Made by a program: the position numbers and the translations under genes. Below, piece by piece: positions 4,560-17,218 of a DNA stretch of 64,000 bases. Every line of letters begins with the position of its first letter. The stretch's first letter is position 1. The notes under the pieces were generated by a model. That model was not told the origin of the DNA. It saw nothing but the letters and a program-made list of their open reading frames with translations, and did not search any database. The DNA comes from a bacterium 336/3 (GTDB taxonomy: Bacteria > Bacteroidota > Bacteroidia > Cytophagales > Thermonemataceae): NCBI GenBank assembly GCA_001281695.1, contig LJIE01000001.1, forward strand, positions 1,998,586 to 2,062,585, given 5' to 3'.

Positions 4560-7160
4560 CTATTTTTGGGCTTTCTCTATTTTATATACAATATGCTCTC
4601 TATGAGCTTTTGTTGCAGCATCACCTCCAGTGGTAGCTTTCAACATTCTTTTGATTTTATTTAACTCATACAAAGCTACAGATTGAGCTGGATACACATA
4701 AAAAGAAAGTCTATCCAAACCAGCAATAGCAAGTAATCTACCTATATACTCAATTTGTAAGTTTTGACGGAAGGTATTTACATTACCTCCTAAATCAGCT
4801 TTGAAAAGAGCATCTGTCAAATCTCCCATCATATCAGCCAATTTATAGCCATTTCCATAATGTTCTGAGTTTAAGATACGTTGCTGAGTAACAGGGCTTA
4901 ATAAATGTGTGAGTATATTTCCATACATTGCCAAAACTCTTTCATTGATACGAGGATCTTCACCACGACCAAAGAAATTAAATCCACGACGTTGTTGTTG
5001 TAAGTAGTTATACAAATCTACTGGAGCTTTCATTGCATCAGGAGCAAATACTTGCTCTGTGAGTATTTTCATAGCTCTTTTTTGATCTGCTGTAGAAACA
5101 GGCGTATAAGGTTGTGTAGCCCCTTTTTGTCCTACAAAACCTCTATCTACATATACACCACCAATATAACGTGAAATGGCATTGGCAGAGTTGAATTTCT
5201 GAGCTGTTAAGGCAAAATAACGTATCAAAAGCTCATCATAAGATTGATTTTGGAAGTTTTTAAGGTGATTCTCTTTTAGTTTAGGTAATAGATTATCTAC
5301 CATTTTCATTCTTTCAGAACCATAACGAATCATATCAGAAGATTGGTCATAAATCATAACTCTTGGGTCAATACCACTAAATGAGCTACGCATATCATCA
5401 GCATCATTGCCAAATGTAAGTTCGGGTTCAGTAGAACGAGCCAGAACTCTTTCTAAACGTTGTTTTTCAGCATTTGCATCAGAGAGTGTACCATAGGCAA
5501 ATTCAATAGCCCAATTATCGTAAGGACCAGGTTTTGTTGTGTAATATTGACCTTGCTTTTCTCTATCTAAAGCTACATTTGGTAATGGATAATCCATTAC
5601 AGAACCTTGTAAGCCTACTTTTTTAGTAATTTCTTCATTATGTATATTATCAGGGCTGTGTAATTGTGTTGCTTTCATGTTATGGTTAAGCCCCAAAGTA
5701 TGTCCCATTTCATGCAATACCAAATAATAAATTTGCTCTTCTGTGTATTTTTTAATATCGTCATCTGTACCACCTAACAACTGCACAGCCGAAAGACCGA
5801 ATACATTGTGTACTTGCATGTGATGCCCTAAAGAACAGAACTGATGATTTTTGTGATACTTAGCAAACTCTTGTTCTTGTTCCAAAAGATTATTGTTGAG
5901 AGCTGCTGTCTCAAAAATCTTATTGCTTCTCATAGAGTTGATAATGAAAGTATATTCTAACATAATATCAGCACCCAAAATTTGTCCTGTTCTTGGATTT
6001 ACAAATGAAGGTCCGTAACCACCAAAAGGAGGTTGGGGAGAAGATGTCCAACGCAATACATTATAACGAATATCTCCAGCATCCCAAGTAGCTGTATCAG
6101 GTTGAACTTTAATTTCTACAGCATTCTTAAAACCTGCTTTTTCAAAAGATTCATTCCAAGCTAAACCTGCCTTTTTAATAGTTTCTCTAAATTCGACAGG
6201 TGTTGTTTTTTCAATCCAAAATACAATAGGTTCTACAGGTTCTGAAAGAGCAGCACTTGGGTTTTTCTTTTTAAGATTCCACTTGTGTACAAAATCTCTG
6301 AAATTTGTACTAGATTTACTTGTAAGATCTGTAACTTGTGTTGTAAAATAACCAACTCTTGGATCATCAAATGTAGAAATAAAGTCATTTTGAGGCATTT
6401 CTATCAAACTATGTTGAGACTTGATAGTAATGAAACGATTATCCACTACTGCATCACTGGTTGCACCTTGTGGAGCAGGGTTGTCATAAGTGTATTCAAC
6501 TACTACATCTGTATTTTTAGGATAATTTCTGATTCCTCCATATTTGGTTTTATCTCTATTTAAATTTCCTAATCTAAAACCTTGATAAGTAGGAGGGTAG
6601 TTTGGTTTAATGGGAGAAACATCTTCACCTAAAAACACCTTATCAGCCTTGATAAGAATTTCACCTTTTTCTTTATCTTCTACTTCTATTTTTTCTGAAA
6701 GCATGATAGCATTTCCAATATTGGCATCAGCAGCTTTTGATAGGGCATTGTTGGGGTCAAAATAAAAGCTTGTGTTTATATTGATAAATTCTATTCTATC
6801 ATAATATCGTTTAATGGTAAATACTTTGTTATCTCTAAAATTTCCACGATAATTTCCTCCTTCCAGTACTCCATCAGTAGTAAAACTAAAATAGATAAAT
6901 TCTTTACCTATTTGTTCTTTTTTGATAAGCATATACACAGAACCATCTTTTTCATCTTGATATAAATTGAAAAGCCCATTAGATGCTTTACACTTCCCTA
7001 TAACAGAAGCTATTGTTTTAGGTGGTGGAGATTGCTGAGTCTGAGTAGTTACTTGGGCATCTTTGCCCTTCTTTTTCTTGTCTTTTTTTTGGGCTGTGGC
7101 ACCAAGCGATATAAAAAAGCATGCCACTAAAAGCCATGAAAATGTGTATTTAATTTTCAT
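4560..7160 (-). CDS. secreted zinc-dependent metalloprotease (DUF5117/DUF5118/DUF4953 type)
   Basis: An 866-aa exported protease. It starts with a signal peptide (LLVACFFISLGATAQ), then a Lys-rich linker and a domain with SVIGKCKASNGLFNLYQ that fits the DUF5118/DUF5117 N-terminal part. The catalytic motif HEMGHTLGLNHN (about residues 481-492) is an extended metzincin-like HExxHxxGxxH site. Downstream SVMDYPLPN is the likely Met-turn. This layout is that of the 'zinc-dependent metalloprotease' family common in Bacteroidota, usually 800-900 aa, so the gene is full length. It should act in the periplasm or outside the cell. No T9SS sorting domain is visible at the C-terminus. Substrates are unknown. 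The gene is alone between a shared terminator and a long upstream spacer. Confidence 0.88.
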   Translation of the reverse strand: MKIKYTFSWLLVACFFISLGATAQKKDKKKKGKDAQVTTQTQQSPPPKTIASVIGKCKASNGLFNLYQDEKDGSVYMLIKKEQIGKEFIYFSFTTDGVLEGGNYRGNFRDNKVFTIKRYYDRIEFININTSFYFDPNNALSKAADANIGNAIMLSEKIEVEDKEKGEILIKADKVFLGEDVSPIKPNYPPTYQGFRLGNLNRDKTKYGGIRNYPKNTDVVVEYTYDNPAPQGATSDAVVDNRFITIKSQHSLIEMPQNDFISTFDDPRVGYFTTQVTDLTSKSSTNFRDFVHKWNLKKKNPSAALSEPVEPIVFWIEKTTPVEFRETIKKAGLAWNESFEKAGFKNAVEIKVQPDTATWDAGDIRYNVLRWTSSPQPPFGGYGPSFVNPRTGQILGADIMLEYTFIINSMRSNKIFETAALNNNLLEQEQEFAKYHKNHQFCSLGHHMQVHNVFGLSAVQLLGGTDDDIKKYTEEQIYYLVLHEMGHTLGLNHNMKATQLHSPDNIHNEEITKKVGLQGSVMDYPLPNVALDREKQGQYYTTKPGPYDNWAIEFAYGTLSDANAEKQRLERVLARSTEPELTFGNDADDMRSSFSGIDPRVMIYDQSSDMIRYGSERMKMVDNLLPKLKENHLKNFQNQSYDELLIRYFALTAQKFNSANAISRYIGGVYVDRGFVGQKGATQPYTPVSTADQKRAMKILTEQVFAPDAMKAPVDLYNYLQQQRRGFNFFGRGEDPRINERVLAMYGNILTHLLSPVTQQRILNSEHYGNGYKLADMMGDLTDALFKADLGGNVNTFRQNLQIEYIGRLLAIAGLDRLSFYVYPAQSVALYELNKIKRMLKATTGGDAATKAHREHIVYKIEKAQK

Positions 7161-7469
7161 AAGAGAATATGGGTTTTATTAATTTTACTAATGAACGTTT
7201 AGAGATACAATTATGGTATTTTTTTTGTATAAATTTTATAAAAAAATATGTATTGCTATAAAATCATGTAACCAATCATGAATTATAGACGTAAAGAGCT
7301 TAAAAAATGACCACATTTTTTTTTAACGAAAAAAAAATGGTTACCTTTAATACAATTTTCAGAATATACATGAAAAAATCTCTTGAATCTTTATATTCTA
7401 CAATAAAATAACCTCAAACTTGTTATGTGTTATAATTATTACTTAAAGAGAATCATAAAAGCGAAACTT
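7161..7469. other. 309-bp AT-rich spacer between divergent genes
   Basis: The spacer separates the divergently read metalloprotease and the giant T9SS protein and so must hold both promoters. It contains long A and T runs (for example around 7317-7338), but no convincing hairpin, RNA gene or clear TAnnTTTG box with a -33 partner was seen. Confidence 0.5.
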
Positions 7470-10400
7470 ATGAGAATTACGAATTACCAAAGTAAAACAA
7501 CACCCCAAAAATCTCCATTTGGGACTTTACTCAAAGTGTTGGTAGTATTACTAGCTTCTTTTTCATTTGATAAAGCATGGGGGCAACTGAGTATTACAGC
7601 CAAGGATACTCCATTTACTATTGACTTTACCACAACTCTAGGAGGGGTAAATAACGGTACATTCAATGGAAATGCTAACCTAGCTGTTGCTGCTCCTGGT
7701 GCAGGACAGCTTAATTCTAATGGTTGGCATTTTGTAGATGATGGAGCTGCTTCTGGTTCTGCCGTTGTTTTTGGCGGAACACCTACTGCTTTGGGTAAAG
7801 GAACGATAATTGGTGCTGCTACCAATGATGGTGCAGGACAAGGTTGGTATGCTCAAAATGTGGGGGGGACTGGTAATATAGCCCTTTATTGGCAACCTCA
7901 AGGAGCTTTTGCTACTTCTGGTATGGTAACATTACAAGTTACAAATAATACTGGTTCTACAGTTAGCAATTTAGATTTATCTTATAGAATTAGAGAAATC
8001 AATAATAGAGATGGTACCAATGGTATTAAGTTATTTACATCTACGGATAATGTAACTTATACAGCTGTTACATCATTAGATTATACATCTATTAATGCAG
8101 AGCCTGCAGCTACCATCAATATTACAGGTATTACAAGAGGAGCAACTACTGTCATTACACATGCATCTGGAGCAAATTCTGGTATAGCAGTGAATGATAT
8201 AATATTCTTCAATAATTCAGTTGGAGGAACAACACAATTGCGTAGAATGTCAGGAGTTGTACTTGCTACAACTGCTACTACAACTACTGTTGCAATTAAC
8301 TCTGCAGCATTTGGTAATTTTACATCAGGAGGACAATTTGTAGAAGTAAATACATTAGAAACTGTTCGTAGAACAACTGTATCACCTGGTGGAGGTATTC
8401 CTAATGGTGGTAGTGTGTTTATTCGTTGGTTTTTAGATGGAACAGGACAAGATGAACTTTCTATTGATGATATATCTTTTGTAGCAGATGCTGAAGGCTT
8501 GGTACTCACCAACCCCAATGTCTCAACTGTAATTGATTTTGACAATACATTAACGAATGTAAATAATTCATTATTTACAGCTCCTGCAACATTGTCTGTG
8601 GTAACACCTGCCGCAGGGCAACTTAACAGAGCAACATGGAGTTTTACCAATGATGGAGCAGGTACAGAAACACAATTTTCTTCTGCATTTGGTGTAGATG
8701 GTACAGCTGGACAAGGTATTTCGGCTGGTACTGTTGCAACAGATGGATGGTATGCTTTTAATGTTCCAGATGTAAATTCTCTTTCAGGGGCAACTTCAAG
8801 GGCACTGGGTTGGCAGTCCAATACAGGTTTTGCTACCAATGGAGCTGTTACACTTAAAGTAACCAATAATACAGGAACTACTATACAAGATTTTAGAATT
8901 AGTTATAATGTATGGGAACTCAATAATACGGCTGTTTCAAATAGAGTCAGAGTTCTTGTTTCAACTACCAACAATGGTGCGGCAGGTAGTTATATATTGG
9001 TACCAGGTAGTACTCATAACAGTGTGGCAGCAGCAGCAGGTGCACCTGCATGGGTAGGGTCTTTATATAACTTAACAGCACGCAGTGCCATAGGAGCATT
9101 GAGCATACCTAATGGAGGTTCTTTGTTTCTTAGATTTTATTTAGACAATAATGGTACAAACGCTGAAGGGGATGAAATGGCAATTGATGATATTAGCATC
9201 ATTGCATCAGTTGCACCTCTTACAAGTATCAATCTAAACCGAGGCATACTTTGGGCTTATGATGGTTTTGACTATTATGAAACATTAGGCCAAGTTGGTG
9301 ATATTGATAATGATGGTGTAAATGACCCAACAGGTTTTAAAGGAATATTAACAAGATTCAGTAATTTTGGTGTAGCACCTATTGACTTACATGGTGTAAC
9401 AACAAACTCTACTGATAATAGATATACTAATAGAAACGGATTTTCTACATTAGGTTGGGCAGGAGATTGGTTGGCAACAGCTAACCCTAATACACTTGTT
9501 AGTAATGTGCAAGTTACTCCAGGGCAAGATGCTGGAATAGTTGGTGTTGTGAATGTAAAGCCAACCATTCCCATTACAAGTGCTTCTGAGCAACGAAGTT
9601 TAGTAAACTCTGGTATGTATGTAGAGGGTGGGAATGGACAAGTAACAGGTAGAAGAATTCAAACCAGTACAGGTGGATATGCCTTCCAATATACAGCTAC
9701 AAGTACTACAAACTTCCAACCTTGTACAAGTTTATCAGGTGATTGCCCATCTATTAGTCCTATTAGACATAATACAGATGTACGAGCTGTTACGCATATT
9801 GCGACAGCAGCAAATCAATTGGCAGGTGATAACTTAAAATGGACTCATACTAATAATACAAGATTGGGTGCTGAAGGCTCTACAGTTTGGGTAGGCGTAA
9901 TGCTTAGAAAGAACTTCAATAATAATGATCCTATATTTATTTCTTTGCATAGAAATGGTAATGTATTTACTCCAGGAACAGGTACTAATGAAGTCCAAAT
10001 TGGATATTTTGGAGGAACAAATGCTGACGGTACAGATGCTGATGGTTTTAGACATTGGGGTGTAAGAGTAGGAGGTGTATTGACAAAAGGAACAAGTGTA
10101 AACAGCCGTATTACTACTGCTCAAATGATTAACGCTGGTTTAACAGGGCAACCACAACCTACTACACCTGAAGAGAGAGTGTTCGATTTATTGGTAGCTC
10201 GTATTGATTTTGCTGAAGGAACAGCTGCTTCTGTTGTAGATGCGGCAGGCTTAACAACTCCTGATAACTCTTATGCATCAAACCACAGAGTACGCTTGTA
10301 TATAATTAGAGATATAGCAAGAGATAATGCAAGCCCTAATGTAGATTCTTACCCATTGGTTGCAAACCCTGCGGGTTATTCGGCAGACCAAGGTAAAATA

Positions 10401-13175
10401 TTGGATGATTTAGGAGATGATATTACTGATACTGATGGAGCTGGTGGAGATGACTTTGTACAGCATGTAGAAGTAGATGTAACAGTACCTGCAGCAACAG
10501 ATATTTCATTTCACTCTATGGCATACTCTCCAGGAGCAAATGCAGATGCGAGTGCTATGGATGAATTCCGTTTAGGAGGTAGTTTTAGCCAAGCAGCTTT
10601 AAATTCTCCTGTAATCAGTTTAGTACGTGGTTTGTGTAGTGCCAATGGAGGTACCATAGGCTTGCAATCTTACCAAGGTGGTAATTTTGGTGAAGCACAG
10701 TGTTTAGATGCAAACGGTAATCCTGTGGCTTGTGCAGGTGGAACTGTAACACAAGCTACTTCTACTACTACAGGTACACAAGAAATTTATGATGCAGCTA
10801 TTAATGATATTTGGGGCAGTGCAACTCCCAATAGTACTCTTTTTAATACCTACAATGGTATTCATCCTTCTTATCCTAATGATGCTGTTGCAAACCATGT
10901 AGTAAGAGCTGGTGGAGGAACATTATTATTTAATGGAGGACCTACTTATAGAAATATCAGTGGTGGAGTTTATAATTATCAATTAAATATTGGTTCAGGA
11001 CCTAATGATAATAACTACCTCATTGGTACTCAATCAAGACATAGTTTTGGACCTGCTTGGGTAGGTTTTTATGATAATAGCCCTAATAGAAATGGATATT
11101 TGATGAGTATCAATGCTGCTTATGCTCGTGGCAAATTCTTTGACCAAACAATTTCTGGACTTTGTGCAGATACTCAATATGAATTTTCTGTAGATATTAT
11201 CAATGTGTTGAGAGATACAAGAGTAATTACAAATGAAAGTCCTTATGTTCCTTTAGCTTTCGGGTTTGGAAATTATGGAGGCTCAGTTTTTGTTGCAACA
11301 GATACTTGTGACCCTTCTGTTGAGCCTGGTTGTGCACAGTTTAGTCGCCCTGGTAGTACAGGTAGTACCATTGGTTTGGGTTCTGTAACTCGTGGTGGTA
11401 CAGGTGCTGCTGGTACAACTTCTGGAGGTGGAGGTAATAACAGAGCATACTCTTTAAATCCTGAAATAGATTTTGCTTTGAATGAAAGCCCAATTTATAC
11501 AGTACCAGTTTCTATCCCTAATGATAAAACATGGCATAGAGTAGGTCTTACTTTTGTAACCAAAGCAAATCTTTCTCAAGCTTTGAACTTATCTATGAGA
11601 AACTTAGCTCCTGGTGGTATGGGTAATGACTTAGCTATAGACAATGTAAGTTTCCGTCCTTGTGGTTCTTACTCTCGCTTGATAGATGAAACAACAGTTT
11701 GTGCAAATGCTGGTGGACCAACAGATGGTAGAATCCAAACAATTATTGGAAAAGCAGGAAATAGCTATAGCAACTCGAAAGTAAGATTCCAGAAATGGAC
11801 TCCTTTCCCTTATCCAATCGGTCTTTTAATTACAAACGTAACAAATACAGGGGCACCTACTATTATTACAGTTGCTAATGGTGGTGGAGCAAACGATTTT
11901 GCTGGAACTTATCGTGTACCTGTGGGTGCTGAAGTTGCCTTATTCGATTTGACAGGTCTTCCAATTAATAACACTACAGCAATTGTTACAGCTAAAACAG
12001 CTAATACCATTACTATTGGAAGTACTAATGCAGTAGCTTATCCTGGTAATACAGGTGTATTACAGGTAACAGCTTTACCTGATGCACTGATTACAAGTAT
12101 TTCACAAACAAACCCAGTAGTAGTAACATTAAGTGGTACAACAGGTGATGATATAGCTTTGAATACATTTGTAAGTTTCTCTGGAGTTACAGGTATGACC
12201 CAAATCAATGGGTTAGCAGGAAGAGTTACTTCTAAAACGTCTAATACAATTACCATAGGTTCAATCAATGCTTCTGCTTTTTCTGCTTATACAGGCTCTA
12301 CAACAGAAAGAATAGCAATCTCTCATCCTAGTGATGATATAGATGGTGATGCAATAGCAGATGAAACAGAGTGGATAGATATGGATTTTAACCCTTATGA
12401 TGGTAAAAATTATACAGTAGTGGATGTAATCACGACACCAACAGAGTATCAAACAGATTTAATTCCTATTACACCTGTGGCTTTACCAAGAACCATTACA
12501 CAATACAATGTATTTTATTCTAATGGTACAAACTTCAGGTCTATGTTTGCAGGTAATGAGGCTAACTTGTTAGATGATTCTGGTAAGTGTAGATTTATCA
12601 TCCCTGGTTTCCAAACCAATTGTAGTATCTTACCAGCAACAGGAGGAAGATTAAGAGCTAAAAACACAAATGATGGAATTCAATTGAATTGGAATGCTTT
12701 TCAAGAAAATGCTGATGTAAAATATGTTTTAGAGCGTTCTTATGATGCTAAAAACTATGTAGCCATTGCTGATTACACAGCTCTTAATAAAGATGAGTAT
12801 AAGCATTTAGATGGAGCACCATTTGTGGGTAAAAACTATTACAGAATCAAGATTGTAGAAAGTAAAGGAAGTTTCTATTATACCAATGTTGCTACTGCTG
12901 ATTGGGGTAATAAAAATGCTTTGAGTATATATCCTAACCCTGCAAATGATAAAGTAAATGTTACATTCTCAACTGATTTTGCTCAAGACCAAGCAGTAAC
13001 GGTAAGAGTCTTGAACATGATGGGTAGCCAAGTAAAAAATAAAAACTATACTTTGGCAGGTGGAGAAAGAAATTTAGAAATTAATACACAAGATTTACCT
13101 GAAGGACTTTATTTATTAGAAATCAAGATTGGAGATATAGATAAAATAGTTCATAAGATGGTAATTAAACGCTAA
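7470..13175 (+). CDS. giant secreted multidomain protein with T9SS type A sorting domain
   Basis: A 1901-aa surface or secreted protein. The ATG at 7470 is chosen because the signal peptide follows directly (VLVVLLASFSFDKAWGQ). Residues about 41-340 and 350-580 are two copies of a jelly-roll-like domain, each opening with an IDF...T..NVNN motif and closing with AIDDIS or SIDDIS. A LamG-like middle part follows (about 590-1060), then a carbohydrate-binding-like domain ending LAIDNVSFRPCG (about 1120-1410). Three FCCH-like modules occur at about residues 216-294, 1452-1536 and 1540-1619. Near the end an FN3-like segment (YVLERSYDAKNYVAI) precedes the T9SS type A domain (SIYPNPANDKVNV to the final VIKR). 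The protein should cross the outer membrane by T9SS and be cleaved or anchored outside. It is followed five bases later by the next secreted-protein gene. The ligand is unknown. Confidence 0.88.
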   Translation: MRITNYQSKTTPQKSPFGTLLKVLVVLLASFSFDKAWGQLSITAKDTPFTIDFTTTLGGVNNGTFNGNANLAVAAPGAGQLNSNGWHFVDDGAASGSAVVFGGTPTALGKGTIIGAATNDGAGQGWYAQNVGGTGNIALYWQPQGAFATSGMVTLQVTNNTGSTVSNLDLSYRIREINNRDGTNGIKLFTSTDNVTYTAVTSLDYTSINAEPAATINITGITRGATTVITHASGANSGIAVNDIIFFNNSVGGTTQLRRMSGVVLATTATTTTVAINSAAFGNFTSGGQFVEVNTLETVRRTTVSPGGGIPNGGSVFIRWFLDGTGQDELSIDDISFVADAEGLVLTNPNVSTVIDFDNTLTNVNNSLFTAPATLSVVTPAAGQLNRATWSFTNDGAGTETQFSSAFGVDGTAGQGISAGTVATDGWYAFNVPDVNSLSGATSRALGWQSNTGFATNGAVTLKVTNNTGTTIQDFRISYNVWELNNTAVSNRVRVLVSTTNNGAAGSYILVPGSTHNSVAAAAGAPAWVGSLYNLTARSAIGALSIPNGGSLFLRFYLDNNGTNAEGDEMAIDDISIIASVAPLTSINLNRGILWAYDGFDYYETLGQVGDIDNDGVNDPTGFKGILTRFSNFGVAPIDLHGVTTNSTDNRYTNRNGFSTLGWAGDWLATANPNTLVSNVQVTPGQDAGIVGVVNVKPTIPITSASEQRSLVNSGMYVEGGNGQVTGRRIQTSTGGYAFQYTATSTTNFQPCTSLSGDCPSISPIRHNTDVRAVTHIATAANQLAGDNLKWTHTNNTRLGAEGSTVWVGVMLRKNFNNNDPIFISLHRNGNVFTPGTGTNEVQIGYFGGTNADGTDADGFRHWGVRVGGVLTKGTSVNSRITTAQMINAGLTGQPQPTTPEERVFDLLVARIDFAEGTAASVVDAAGLTTPDNSYASNHRVRLYIIRDIARDNASPNVDSYPLVANPAGYSADQGKILDDLGDDITDTDGAGGDDFVQHVEVDVTVPAATDISFHSMAYSPGANADASAMDEFRLGGSFSQAALNSPVISLVRGLCSANGGTIGLQSYQGGNFGEAQCLDANGNPVACAGGTVTQATSTTTGTQEIYDAAINDIWGSATPNSTLFNTYNGIHPSYPNDAVANHVVRAGGGTLLFNGGPTYRNISGGVYNYQLNIGSGPNDNNYLIGTQSRHSFGPAWVGFYDNSPNRNGYLMSINAAYARGKFFDQTISGLCADTQYEFSVDIINVLRDTRVITNESPYVPLAFGFGNYGGSVFVATDTCDPSVEPGCAQFSRPGSTGSTIGLGSVTRGGTGAAGTTSGGGGNNRAYSLNPEIDFALNESPIYTVPVSIPNDKTWHRVGLTFVTKANLSQALNLSMRNLAPGGMGNDLAIDNVSFRPCGSYSRLIDETTVCANAGGPTDGRIQTIIGKAGNSYSNSKVRFQKWTPFPYPIGLLITNVTNTGAPTIITVANGGGANDFAGTYRVPVGAEVALFDLTGLPINNTTAIVTAKTANTITIGSTNAVAYPGNTGVLQVTALPDALITSISQTNPVVVTLSGTTGDDIALNTFVSFSGVTGMTQINGLAGRVTSKTSNTITIGSINASAFSAYTGSTTERIAISHPSDDIDGDAIADETEWIDMDFNPYDGKNYTVVDVITTPTEYQTDLIPITPVALPRTITQYNVFYSNGTNFRSMFAGNEANLLDDSGKCRFIIPGFQTNCSILPATGGRLRAKNTNDGIQLNWNAFQENADVKYVLERSYDAKNYVAIADYTALNKDEYKHLDGAPFVGKNYYRIKIVESKGSFYYTNVATADWGNKNALSIYPNPANDKVNVTFSTDFAQDQAVTVRVLNMMGSQVKNKNYTLAGGERNLEINTQDLPEGLYLLEIKIGDIDKIVHKMVIKR

Positions 13176-13180
13176 GAATT

Positions 13181-15334
13181 ATGAAAAGGATTTTTTGTCT
13201 GATAGTTTTTGGTATGATGTTGGCAATAAATGTTACAGGTCAGTCTGTAACATTTACTCCCTCCAGTATTACAACCCCTAACGTTGGGCTGGGACTATTG
13301 CAATATGAAATAAATACTACAAATGTACCCATAGTGCCTAATATTAGGATTAACTTATCAGGATTTAGTTGTACCCCACTTACCTATGATTGGCAAACAG
13401 TGGCCTATACTCCTGTTTTTACTGGAACAACAAATCCTCAATTTAGACATCCTATATTTGCAGCCCCTGTTGCAGACCCTCCACCAAATTCAACTGCGGC
13501 AGCTAACAGAGCTCAATACAGAATATTTGGCCCAGGTATTTATACACTCAGACTTTGTGTATCAGCATGTGGTGGAACCCAAACAGCTTGTGGTGAAGTT
13601 CAAATTGTGGCTCAACCCTTAGCCAATGTAAATCCATTGGTATCATTTGAAGATATTAATGAACTGACATTACCAGTTGGAGGAAGTGAACAATTGGATG
13701 TAACAGTAGAAGATATTACAGACCAACATAGTTTTACATGGTCTCAGGCGGGAACAAATCCTATGGCTTTGACTTTGCCCAATGGAGGAAGTGCTATTAA
13801 TGTTACAAGAGGTTCATCACCAACATTATCACAATTAAACCTTTCAGCTATCAATAAACCTGGGAATTACTGTTTTACTGTTGATGCAGCAGATGAAAGG
13901 AGTGGAACAGGAACAGCCACAGAATGTTTCTTGGTCAAACCAAATACTAGTACTTTGGCTATTAATATCACACAGCCAGGAGGTCCACCTGACCCCAGTG
14001 TGTTGTTTACCCCTGTAAACAATGTACCTTTGAATGCTGAGATTACAGGAATAAATACCTTTAATGATAGGATACTTTATACATGGTCACAGATAGCAGG
14101 ACCTACCACTATTACTTTACCAACTCCAGCATACACAGCCAATATAGCAAGTATTCCAGTAGCAAGTACTACATTTACAGTTCCAGCCTTGAATTTGAAT
14201 GCTTTGGCTTATGGGACATACACTTTGAGACTGAGGGCAGAAGATGAGTATTACCCAGGAACTTTTGTAGAACAAGATATTACTTTTACTGTCAAACCTC
14301 CTGAAAGTAACTTGGATGTAACAGTAACACCTTCTGCAGTGACAACCATAGACCCTTATAGCGATTTTGCAATTAGTGGTAAAGTAACAGGAATAAATGT
14401 TGGGAGTGATGTGATACGTACTTATTGGAGACAAGATGCTACCAACCCTGAACAATTAAGTGCTGCACCTTTTAACTTAACTGCTGCAAGCCCTAAGTCT
14501 ATCCCTTTGGGTACAACTGAGGAAAACTCGAATGGAACACTTGTAAAAAAGATAAGAGAAGGTAGATATATATTTTGGTACGTGGCAAGAGATAGCTTCT
14601 ATAATACAGCCGATTCTGCTAAAGTAGAAATATTGGTAGAACCAGGGAAAAGTACGTTTTCTGTTAGTATTGATCCAAATCAGGAAACATCCTTGACCTC
14701 TGTAGAGGTTAGAAGTATATTTATAAATCTGAATAAAGAAGAAATAGGCTCTTTTGAAATAAAAGGCACTGTAACAGGTATTAGTGATAAAACTGATTAT
14801 GTTGTAACTTATTGGCGTTCTGAGTATGTACCAGAAGCAGAAGCTACCAATACAAATCAGCCAACATTACCTAATACTATCAGTAATCCCAAAAACATAC
14901 CATTAGGAACAACTTCAGATAATGGTACAGTAACTCTTACACCAAGCAATGCAGGAATAGGAGTACATACATTCTGGTTTGTAGCTCGTGATACTTTTTA
15001 TGGTACTGCCGATTCTGTTTCTGTTAAAGTTAATATCGGAAGATTGGTTGAAATAATACCCTCAGTAGCATTCTCGCCCAATGGAGATGGACAAAATGAT
15101 ATTTGGAGAGTAAGTAATATAGAAGGCTTCCCTGAGGTGGGTGTAAAAATTGTAAATGAAAGAGGAGAAATAGTTTTTGAAACAGATTCGGTTGCTCAGC
15201 TTCCTGATAAAGGTTGGGATGGAAGAAGAAAAGATGGAAGATTTGCAAGTGAAGGAGCTTACTATTACGAGTTTTTCAATACACGAGAGCAAAACAAAAA
15301 ACTCAATGTAGGTAGTTTTGTCATTGTTCGGTAA
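13181..15334 (+). CDS. secreted Ig/PKD-like repeat protein with T9SS type B (CHU_C) sorting domain
   Basis: A 717-aa exported protein. The signal peptide is KRIFCLIVFGMMLAINVTGQ. The body is built of beta-rich, PKD/Ig-like segments with Cys pairs (SGFSCTPLTYDW, CVSACGGTQTACGE). Two copies of a module of about 120 residues lie at about 375-488 and 491-622, each ending in a FWYVARDSFY- or FWFVARDTFY-type strand. The C-terminal about 95 residues are a gliding-motility-type CHU_C domain: VAFSPNGDGQND, IVNERGEIVFE, WDGR, GAYYYEF. That domain directs T9SS export by the type B route. The gene starts five bases after the giant T9SS gene and is probably cotranscribed with it, ending at a strong terminator. 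It is paralogous to the next gene, which has a different sorting domain. Function may be adhesion or scaffold, which is inference. Confidence 0.87.
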   Translation: MKRIFCLIVFGMMLAINVTGQSVTFTPSSITTPNVGLGLLQYEINTTNVPIVPNIRINLSGFSCTPLTYDWQTVAYTPVFTGTTNPQFRHPIFAAPVADPPPNSTAAANRAQYRIFGPGIYTLRLCVSACGGTQTACGEVQIVAQPLANVNPLVSFEDINELTLPVGGSEQLDVTVEDITDQHSFTWSQAGTNPMALTLPNGGSAINVTRGSSPTLSQLNLSAINKPGNYCFTVDAADERSGTGTATECFLVKPNTSTLAINITQPGGPPDPSVLFTPVNNVPLNAEITGINTFNDRILYTWSQIAGPTTITLPTPAYTANIASIPVASTTFTVPALNLNALAYGTYTLRLRAEDEYYPGTFVEQDITFTVKPPESNLDVTVTPSAVTTIDPYSDFAISGKVTGINVGSDVIRTYWRQDATNPEQLSAAPFNLTAASPKSIPLGTTEENSNGTLVKKIREGRYIFWYVARDSFYNTADSAKVEILVEPGKSTFSVSIDPNQETSLTSVEVRSIFINLNKEEIGSFEIKGTVTGISDKTDYVVTYWRSEYVPEAEATNTNQPTLPNTISNPKNIPLGTTSDNGTVTLTPSNAGIGVHTFWFVARDTFYGTADSVSVKVNIGRLVEIIPSVAFSPNGDGQNDIWRVSNIEGFPEVGVKIVNERGEIVFETDSVAQLPDKGWDGRRKDGRFASEGAYYYEFFNTREQNKKLNVGSFVIVR

Positions 15335-15350
15335 GATTTTAAATACAACG

Positions 15351-15376
15351 AAAAGCCAAAGGAAACTTTGGCTTTT
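15351..15376 (+). terminator. rho-independent terminator after the type B sorted protein
   Basis: An 11-bp perfect stem AAAAGCCAAAG / CTTTGGCTTTT with a GAAA tetraloop and a following T run. It separates the two paralogous genes, so the downstream copy probably has its own promoter or is read through at a lower level. Confidence 0.85.
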
Positions 15377-15401
15377 TTAACAATATAAACTTGAAAACAT
15401 T

Positions 15402-17192
15402 ATGCAACGAGTACTTTATCTTATTTTATGTGTTTTGGGGATAAATACGCATTTATCTGCTCAATCGGTTTCTTTTACTCCTACTACACTTGTAACAGAG
15501 AATGTTGGATTGGGGTTATTAATGTATGAAATTAATACTACTGATATACCAGTAGTTCCCAATATAAAAGCAAATGTATCAGGGTTTAGTTGTAGTGAAC
15601 TAACTTATGATTGGGAAACAGTTGATTATATTCCATCGTTTATTGGAACAACATTTCCTCAATTTAGATCACCTATATTTACTGCCTTTACTGTTAATCC
15701 AGCACCAAACTCAACGGATGCTGCTAAGAGAGCTCAATACAGAATATTAGGACCTGGGCTTTATACAATTAGATTATGTGTATCAGCTTGTAATGGAACA
15801 GAAATAGCTTGTAATGAGGTAAAAATCATAGCAAGACCTTTGACTAATACATTGCCTAAAATTACATTTGAAACTATCTCAGAATTAGTTTTACCTATAA
15901 ATGCTACGGAACAATTTGATGTAAAAGTAGAGGATTGTACAGACCAACATAACTTTTCTTGGTCACAATCTGCCTCAAATCCTGTGGCTCTAAGCCTTCC
16001 TAATGGAGGAAATACTATTAATGTATCAAGAGGCTCTGATACAACCTTGTCACAATTAAATCTTTCAGGAATTAATAAACCTGGGAATTATTGTTATACA
16101 GTTACAGCCATCGATGAAAGAGGAGGGGATAGCACCCAAACAAAATGTTTTTTGGTAAAACCAAACACCAGTAATTTAGGAATAACGATTAATACACCTG
16201 ACCCTAATTTACTTGTTTCGCCTGTGAATAATGTACCCTTAAATGCTCAAATTACAGGAATAAACTTGTATAACGATAAAATCCGATATACATGGACACA
16301 AGTAGCAGGACCTTCACAAATTAGCTTACCTAATTCTAGTTATACAGCAAATATCAATGATATACCTGTAACAAGCAGTACATTCAATGTTCCTGTTTTG
16401 AATCTAAATAACTTATTATCGGGGACTTACACTTTGAAACTAAGAGTTGAAGACGAATATTATTCAGGAACTTTTATAGAACAAAATGTAACATTTTTTG
16501 TAAAACCTGCTGAAAGCAATTTGGTGGTTTCTACTAATCCAACTCAAGAAACAACACTCTTTAAAGTGCCTAATCAAGGGTTTTTGTTTGCTGGAAGTCA
16601 AAGTCCTGATGCCAATACTCCTTTTGTTGTGAAAGGTACAGTTTCTGGTATTCATCCACAGTCTGGGGCAATTACAACTTATTGGCGTTTAGAACCAGAA
16701 CAAGTAGATGAAACTGACTCTGATAATATTATATTCCCTATTTTTACAAACTTTAATTTTAAAAACTTACCCATAGGAGCAACTACAAACACAGATGAAC
16801 TAGCTTTTAAATATGATGAAATAAAAGTAGGGACGTATAAATTCAGATATTTGGCAAAAGATAATTTTTATGGAACAGAAGTTTCTACTTTTGTAAGAAT
16901 ATATATTGAAAAATTGATACTAAGAGGAGATCTGATAGAAGCCAACCCAAACCCTGCAAATAAAGAAATCAGTTTGGTTTTTGTAAGAGATGAAGACACC
17001 AATAAAGAAATTAGTATAGAAATATCAGATATGATGGGAAAAGTGGTGTTTATACAAAAGCATCAAATGAGCTTTGGAGAAAGAAAATTGATATTAGATA
17101 CACAAAAAATTCCAAACGGTTTTTATGTTTTAAAAGTAAGAAATAATTTTGGAGATGAAATTAACAAAAGAATCATTATAGAACACGAATAA
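15402..17192 (+). CDS. secreted Ig/PKD-like repeat protein with T9SS type A sorting domain, paralog of the upstream gene
   Basis: A 596-aa exported protein. The signal peptide is LYLILCVLGINTHLSAQ. Residues 1 to about 370 follow the upstream 717-aa protein almost position by position: NVGLGLL, SGFSC, AQYRILGPGLYTIRLCVSAC, FSWSQSASNP, NKPGNYCYTV, KLRVEDEYYSGTF. It keeps only one copy of the 120-residue module (about 372-506, ending FRYLAKDNFYGTE). The sorting domain is not CHU_C but a type A Por-like domain, opening with IEANPNPANKEISLVF and ending with GFYVLKVRNNFGDEINKR. The pair is thus a tandem duplication with exchange of the C-terminal domain and loss or gain of a module. It probably acts at the cell surface; no enzymatic motif is visible. 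Confidence 0.87.
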   Translation: MQRVLYLILCVLGINTHLSAQSVSFTPTTLVTENVGLGLLMYEINTTDIPVVPNIKANVSGFSCSELTYDWETVDYIPSFIGTTFPQFRSPIFTAFTVNPAPNSTDAAKRAQYRILGPGLYTIRLCVSACNGTEIACNEVKIIARPLTNTLPKITFETISELVLPINATEQFDVKVEDCTDQHNFSWSQSASNPVALSLPNGGNTINVSRGSDTTLSQLNLSGINKPGNYCYTVTAIDERGGDSTQTKCFLVKPNTSNLGITINTPDPNLLVSPVNNVPLNAQITGINLYNDKIRYTWTQVAGPSQISLPNSSYTANINDIPVTSSTFNVPVLNLNNLLSGTYTLKLRVEDEYYSGTFIEQNVTFFVKPAESNLVVSTNPTQETTLFKVPNQGFLFAGSQSPDANTPFVVKGTVSGIHPQSGAITTYWRLEPEQVDETDSDNIIFPIFTNFNFKNLPIGATTNTDELAFKYDEIKVGTYKFRYLAKDNFYGTEVSTFVRIYIEKLILRGDLIEANPNPANKEISLVFVRDEDTNKEISIEISDMMGKVVFIQKHQMSFGERKLILDTQKIPNGFYVLKVRNNFGDEINKRIIIEHE

Positions 17193-17213
17193 AAGAGAGC
17201 CTTTGCTCTCTTT
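17192..17213. terminator. terminator between convergent genes
   Basis: A 9-bp stem AAAGAGAGC / GCTCTCTTT with a 4-nt loop directly after the stop of the type A sorted protein, followed by a T run on the plus strand. It also precedes the end of the minus-strand FAD oxidoreductase. Confidence 0.75.
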
Positions 17214-17218
17214 TTATT

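Follow-up and report, generated by a model that had tools for sequence, protein, structure and literature searches.

Tandem type IX secretion substrates with a shared body and different sorting tails in a relative of Raineya

Two adjacent genes in a stretch of 64,000 nucleotides (nt) from the bacterium 336/3 (contig LJIE01000001.1, positions 1,998,586 to 2,062,585; this whole stretch is referred to here as the window) encode proteins of 717 and 596 amino acids (aa), called 717 and 596 below. The two proteins have a homologous N-terminal body and end in different sorting tails of the type IX secretion system (T9SS), type B in 717 and type A in 596. The contig that contains the window is 4.11 Mb long, in a genome of 4.71 Mb, and the bacterium is a relative of Raineya that is counted here in the Raineya group. 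In our analysis the most plausible reading of 596 is a lineage-specific duplicate that has a type A tail in place of the type B tail and has kept only one of two repeat modules. Because the two tail types are clear, both delivery routes are present in the genome and tail swaps in Flavobacterium johnsoniae shift the destination of a protein, we infer with good reason that the same body is sent by two routes. The specific destinations that we propose for 717 and 596 are hypothetical.

A first-pass annotation, made from the sequence of the window, had described the two genes as tandem paralogues that share an N-terminal body of about 370 residues, and both its coordinates and this shared body proved correct. 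In a BLASTP comparison the proteins are identical at 281 of 510 positions (55%, E 0.0), so the bodies are homologous; the N-terminal bodies taken alone are identical at 239 of 371 positions (64%). The homology extends beyond these 370 residues, to approximately residue 487 of 717 and residue 503 of 596. Both proteins begin with a signal peptide, as judged by eye. The count of repeat modules downstream from the body, two in 717 (D1 and D2) and one in 596 (D), was also right. In alignment columns 20-45 the single module of 596 has 11 of 12 diagnostic residues of the D2 type, while over its full length it has 19 residues found only in D1 and 25 found only in D2. It is therefore neither clearly a plain copy of D1 nor clearly a plain copy of D2: its insertion is of the D2 type and the rest is mixed.

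The tail types given to the two proteins are borne out by the curated cut-offs of Pfam and NCBIfam. The tail of 717 matches CHU_C (PF13585) at 57.8 bits (cut-off 27) and, by a narrow margin, TIGR04131 at 37.5 bits (cut-off 35), and it falls in one clade with the type B tails of the relatives (100/99). The tail of 596 matches Por_Secre_tail (PF18962) at 50.3 bits (cut-off 27) and TIGR04183 at 45.3 bits (cut-off 23). Among matches at E <= 1, no CHU_C domain is listed in 596 and no Por_Secre_tail domain in 717. The two C-terminal regions thus belong to different sorting types.

The relatives of the two genes suggest which tail came first. In a sample of 390 genomes of the order, homologues of the body were found in four, the window genome counted, and all four genomes are from one family. 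The copies outside the window genome number four in three genomes: one in Raineya orbicola (SPSPC-11; G003), one in its congener (G004) and two in a Cytophagales metagenome-assembled genome (G001). All four have CHU_C tails over the cut-off (54.4-68.7 bits), and among the body copies compared a type A tail is found on 596 alone. The 717 gene begins 5 nt after the gene of a 1916-aa type A protein (PF18962, 52.5 bits at residues 1835-1914), and a gap of 5 nt is also found in the three other genomes. In R. orbicola it separates a large type A gene from a single type B gene (727 aa), and in the congener the end of a large type A gene from a type B gene of 689 aa. The order of the cassette in G001 is A-A-B-B-PorP, with two type A genes of large size and tandem type B genes of 434 and 436 aa that both have the B tail. 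Because all four copies in the relatives are type B and 717 holds the conserved 5-nt place, the direction of change would be from B to A. The tails had been described as exchanged, and of this description the difference in type stands; we see no reciprocal exchange, and the relatives point to a one-way replacement in 596.

The body tree groups 717 and 596 as sisters (92/94). The synonymous divergence (dS) of the bodies is 1.29 between 717 and 596 and 2.44 to R. orbicola, values that are rough and near saturation. By homology, body tree and dS the two genes are tandem paralogues that arose by duplication within the window lineage, and on these data the duplication would be younger than the split from R. 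orbicola. Two further tails of the 717-type clade, one of them with D1-D2, were found at contig ends in another genome (G005); they came from a search with a type B query in which bodies were not detected, so they are no test of polarity. The contigs concerned (L177 1-1029 and L183 2-316) begin inside near-identical ends of type B genes, and G005 seems to have two or more copies of the type B anchor, which the assembly does not separate.

Change at module boundaries may not be restricted to the tail of 596. The type B genes of R. orbicola (L013 7931-10114) and its congener (L014 587-2656) are 84-88% identical in D1, D2 and the tail, while their bodies are only 34% identical. This pattern suggests that a body has been replaced on a conserved type B anchor. 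According to a review, type B fusions were secreted only with more than 200 residues of the C-terminus (PMC10202324), and the conserved unit of D1, D2 and tail may reflect this need. The cassette seems to change readily where modules meet, on the N-terminal side in G004 and on the C-terminal side in the window genome.

In pairwise comparison the best candidate source of the 596 tail is the tail of the 1916-aa cassette partner, which we treat as a lead only. Scored against 75 type A tails, the 596 tail is closest to that of the partner (132), followed by the partner's orthologue in R. orbicola (119) and the next tail at 98 (mean 64, standard deviation 18). A search of eight family genomes puts the same two tails at the top, at 43.6 and 39.9 bits, with all others from 30.2 bits down. 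The tails of 596 and its partner are reciprocal best matches within the genome, and the identity of the 596 tail to the partner tails is 29-30%. In a tail tree of 75 rows (one very short row omitted) 596 falls into a loose set of seven rows that also includes PorU and the five cassette tails (92/94, with an unsettled bootstrap), and in a smaller tree its position is not settled. Approximately unbiased (AU) tests do not demonstrate a clade, nor do they reject one (p 0.499 and 0.396).

In the window genome 72 type A and 15 type B tails score above the cut-off, and in a survey of all A/B combinations of these proteins for a shared body at E <= 1e-5, 16 pairs share a stretch of body. The 717/596 pair is the strongest by far, with 56% identity over 485 aa. 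A second and weaker pair, formed by the type B gene C2:44120 (L140) and the type A gene C1:2335595 (L108), has an N-terminal body that is 38% identical over 253 aa; the remaining 14 pairs score 83 bits or less.

Both routes out of the T9SS translocon are represented in this genome. Type A proteins are reported to leave on PorV, and type B proteins to stay bound to dedicated carriers of the PorP/SprF family (PMC12635249, PMC9143113). PorV was identified at 392.1 bits (NF033709, cut-off 90) beside the sortase PorU (NF033707, 1402.6 bits, cut-off 420), and nine PorP/SprF proteins were found. Engineered swaps of the C-terminal domain (CTD) among SprB, RemA and AmyB in F. johnsoniae are reported to show that the tail decides the location: a type A tail leads to static anchoring or release, the type B tail of SprB makes the protein move along with the gliding machinery, and a different type B tail yields static foci (PMC12618676).

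We propose the following scenario, in which the duplication and the tail replacement have the support of the sequences and of the relatives, while the consequences for delivery are conditional. An ancestral cassette would have held a large type A secreted protein and, 5 nt downstream, a type B protein with an adhesin-like beta-sandwich body. A tandem duplication of the type B gene would have followed in the window lineage, after which the downstream copy would have had its B tail replaced by an A tail at a domain boundary, with two modules becoming one. The upstream protein, 717, would exit the translocon on a dedicated carrier of the PorP/SprF type and remain bound to it, uncleaved, with a SPOR domain of the carrier tethering the complex to peptidoglycan. 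The downstream protein, 596, would exit on PorV, after which PorU would remove its tail and the body would be attached to lipopolysaccharide or released. One body would thus be displayed in two ways, held to the wall or covalently attached or shed. Of the destinations suggested in the first-pass annotation (anchored or released, cell surface or fibre), the idea of two delivery routes is supported by the tail types, by the presence of PorV, PorU and PorP/SprF and by the F. johnsoniae swaps; the fibre is unsupported. What sets 717 and 596 apart may be the way they are anchored and not their location.

The carrier of 717 is most likely one of two PorP/SprF proteins with a C-terminal SPOR domain that are encoded elsewhere in the genome. 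None of the nine PorP/SprF genes lies near the 717 gene, and F. johnsoniae, too, has type B genes with no PorP/SprF gene beside them (PMC12618676). The prediction comes from G001, where a PorP/SprF gene (479 aa) stands at the end of the cassette. Its orthologues are two proteins in the window genome (a 100/100 clade) and one each in G003, G004 and G005. In four members of this class of six a SPOR domain scores above 21 bits, the Pfam cut-off (27.1, 29.1, 23.4 and 22.9). The carrier class (E <= 1e-20 and at least 220 bits) and the 717-type CTD (at least 76 bits) share their distribution among eight family genomes, five of which have both; the remaining three yielded no such carrier, and their top CTD matches score 50, 46 and 29 bits. 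Two shorter PorP matches, of 82 bits in G003 and 73 bits in G005 (314 and 316 aa), are excluded from the class. SPOR domains are reported to bind peptidoglycan strands that lack their peptides and are enriched at the septal ring (PMC6895207). For 717 itself, a static, wall-tethered type B protein is the reading that fits best.

The PorP/SprF proteins with a C-terminal SPOR or SPOR-like domain are at L164 1474-2904, L168 1483-2892, L165 1159-2664, L166 1093-2667, L167 414-1922 and L015 10991-12430. Among the titles and abstract beginnings listed from the open PMC literature we found no report of a PorP-SPOR fusion. Another PorP/SprF protein of the window genome (C1:1650418; L071 1024-2460), near the type B gene C1:1651458, is fused to an OmpA domain (58.6 bits), and possibly joins PorP and a PorE-like function in one chain. 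Because this protein carries an OmpA domain, the fusion of PorP to a wall-binding domain is not unique to the SPOR class.

Several points weigh against the scenario as a whole or against parts of it. The SPOR domain falls below the cut-off in two of the six carriers, one copy in the window genome (15.0) and the linked G001 protein (18.5, for the tail segment alone), and for the whole G001 carrier no SPOR match is listed at E <= 0.01. The co-occurrence comes from eight related genomes, in which four of the five positives are from one genus and one negative is 81% complete, and in the window genome the PorP-SPOR genes are unlinked to the cassette. The origin of the 596 tail in the neighbouring gene is a best match only, at 29% identity, and the trees leave it undecided. 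Tandem duplication in one step predicts the chimaera before the intact copy, which is the opposite of the observed order, and we therefore claim no mechanism for the capture of the tail. Type A tails can lead to either anchoring or release. In Cytophaga hutchinsonii most of the detected type A and type B proteins are reported to be in the outer-membrane fraction (48 type A and 11 type B, compared with 12 and 2 outside the cell), and the deletion of porV altered both types, cutting the outer-membrane type B proteins from 11 to 1 (PMC8564354). Because the porV deletion lowers type B proteins too, the A and B routes are perhaps not fully separate. Taken whole, from the tandem duplication and the replacement of a B by an A tail to the two routes with their predicted destinations, the account has in our view about an even chance of being right.

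The same C. hutchinsonii data, together with the 64% identity of the two bodies, would also agree with a tail swap of little effect, in which both proteins are on the outer surface as redundant or dosage copies of one adhesin. We regard this as possible but doubtful. In model species the tail type sets the carrier and, for type A, sortase cleavage, and a swapped tail in F. johnsoniae is reported to have altered both movement and release (PMC12618676). The branch leading to 596 is also longer than that leading to 717 (0.35 vs 0.13), which suggests a changed constraint.

Another reading is that 596 is a decaying duplicate whose A tail was picked up by chance and which has lost its function. The loss of one module, the divergence of the module that is left (dN 0.62 vs D2 of 717) and a hairpin that precedes the 596 gene could be seen in this light, but 596 has kept an open frame of 596 codons, a signal peptide and a full type A domain, and the dN/dS of the body is approximately 0.2 at a dS of 1.29. 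Decay is therefore improbable. It is quite improbable, too, that the A/B pair is old and the relatives have lost the type A copy, without any recent swap. In favour of this reading are the small number of available relatives, the distance of the 596 tail from the partner tails and the merely borderline AU tests of alternatives to the sisterhood of 717 and 596 (p 0.040 and 0.050); the body tree and dS, however, put the duplication after the split from R. orbicola, and the tandem genes of G001 are both type B. The idea that 717 is a moving, SprB-like gliding adhesin and 596 a static form of the same protein draws on SprB being type B and on reports that the SprB tail alone directs other proteins to the gliding machinery (PMC12618676), but a gliding destination is unlikely because the C-terminal Cys-X-Cys motif reported to tie SprF to the gliding track (PMC12635249) is in none of the nine PorP/SprF proteins found, though a single cysteine lies close to the end of one PorP-SPOR copy, and because R. 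orbicola is reported to be non-motile (PMC5982127), and with a peptidoglycan-binding domain in the predicted carrier class we think this idea very improbable.

The body of 717 has a PKD domain by Pfam (Table 1), and its profile matches the PKD domains of KIAA0319L in the PDB (E 7.9e-8). Structure models reached a mean predicted local distance difference test (pLDDT) score of 41 from two sequences and 66 from five. The five-sequence model is of medium quality and usable mainly for the middle of the body, where 21 of 23 ten-residue blocks in region 151-380 have pLDDT values of 74-91. The fold matches of the body model are strings of Ig, cadherin and complement-like beta-sandwich domains, with low Foldseek TM-scores and a best Z of 10. 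These matches give no function for the body, which in the model looks like the stalk of an adhesin.

Table 1. Positions in the window of the cassette genes, their parts and the adjoining hairpins
Feature	Position	Strand	Evidence and remarks
1916-aa type A partner gene, first in cassette	7425..13175	+	Open reading frame (ORF); gene order shared with G003, G004 (3' fragment) and G001
Type A CTD of the 1916-aa protein	12927..13166	+	Reciprocal best in-genome match of the 596 tail; trees do not settle origin
717-aa type B T9SS substrate gene	13181..15334	+	ORF; positional orthologue of the relatives' type B genes
N-terminal body of 717, residues 22-372, PKD / Ig-like beta-sandwich domains	13244..14296	+	PF22352 35.7 bits, PDB profile match, model
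Module D1 of 717, residues 373-487, 115 aa	14297..14641	+	
Module D2 of 717, residues 488-620, 133 aa	14642..15040	+	
Type B (CHU_C) sorting region of 717, residues 621-717	15041..15331	+	Pfam span 630-707
Intergenic terminator-like hairpin between 717 and 596	15351..15376	+	11-bp stem, GAAA loop, T-rich 3' arm, -14.0 kcal/mol
596-aa duplicate gene, putatively replaced (type A) tail	15402..17192	+	ORF, BLASTP, profile matches, tree
N-terminal body of 596, residues 22-368	15465..16505	+	64% identical to 717 body
Single module D of 596, residues 369-504, 136 aa	16506..16913	+	With D2-type insertion
Type A (Por_Secre_tail) sorting region of 596, residues 505-596	16914..17189	+	Pfam span 516-593
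Terminator-like hairpin at 596 end, overlaps stop codon by 2 nt	17191..17214	+	Scan (both strands), -12.0 kcal/mol

The amounts of 717 and 596 may differ because a terminator-like hairpin lies between their genes. The scan lists this hairpin on the minus strand only, and its plus-strand reading was made from the sequence. The total number of hairpins in the scan, nine, is not clearly above that in shuffled sequences (mean 5.5, standard deviation 2.6). Just upstream of the cassette, on the opposite strand (4560-7160), is the gene of a large Met-zincin metalloprotease (DUF4953/DUF5117).

The 717/596 pair looks like a natural version of the engineered A/B swaps. If our account is true, it would be their natural counterpart, with one body in one genome at two addresses, and a comparison of the locations of 717 and 596 would reveal the role of the tail type in a native setting. 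No report of a natural A/B tail exchange was found among the titles and abstract beginnings listed from the open PMC literature. PorP carriers fused to SPOR, or in one case to OmpA, could explain how some type B proteins stay static with no separate PorE. We also speculate, well aware that it is rather unlikely to hold in full, that a type B protein tethered to the wall by PorP-SPOR, perhaps at denuded septal peptidoglycan, was duplicated and that one copy was rerouted to PorV/PorU by capturing the tail of its cassette partner, and that in this way Bacteroidota evolve new destinations at the surface for an adhesin that they already have.

The closest known case is the set of SprB, RemA and AmyB fusions of F. 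johnsoniae (PMC12618676), in which an A tail is placed on a B protein, or the reverse, and the body is unchanged. Those are laboratory fusions, whereas 596 would be a natural change in a tandem duplicate. The orphan type B genes of F. johnsoniae resemble 717 in that they have no adjacent PorP/SprF gene and their carrier is encoded elsewhere; they differ in that the carrier of 717 is only predicted, from linkage in G001 and co-occurrence, and belongs to a class in which the SPOR domain is over the cut-off in four of six. T9SS type A substrates that use PorV and PorU are like 596 in their type A domain, with both PorV and PorU in the genome, and unlike it in that the body of 596 is that of a type B protein. 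In the PG1035-PorP-PorE system of Porphyromonas gingivalis a type B protein is likewise reported to be held on a PorP barrel with a link to peptidoglycan (PMC9143113). In that system the link is a protein of its own, PorE, whereas here a peptidoglycan-binding domain appears to be fused to the PorP-like protein itself.

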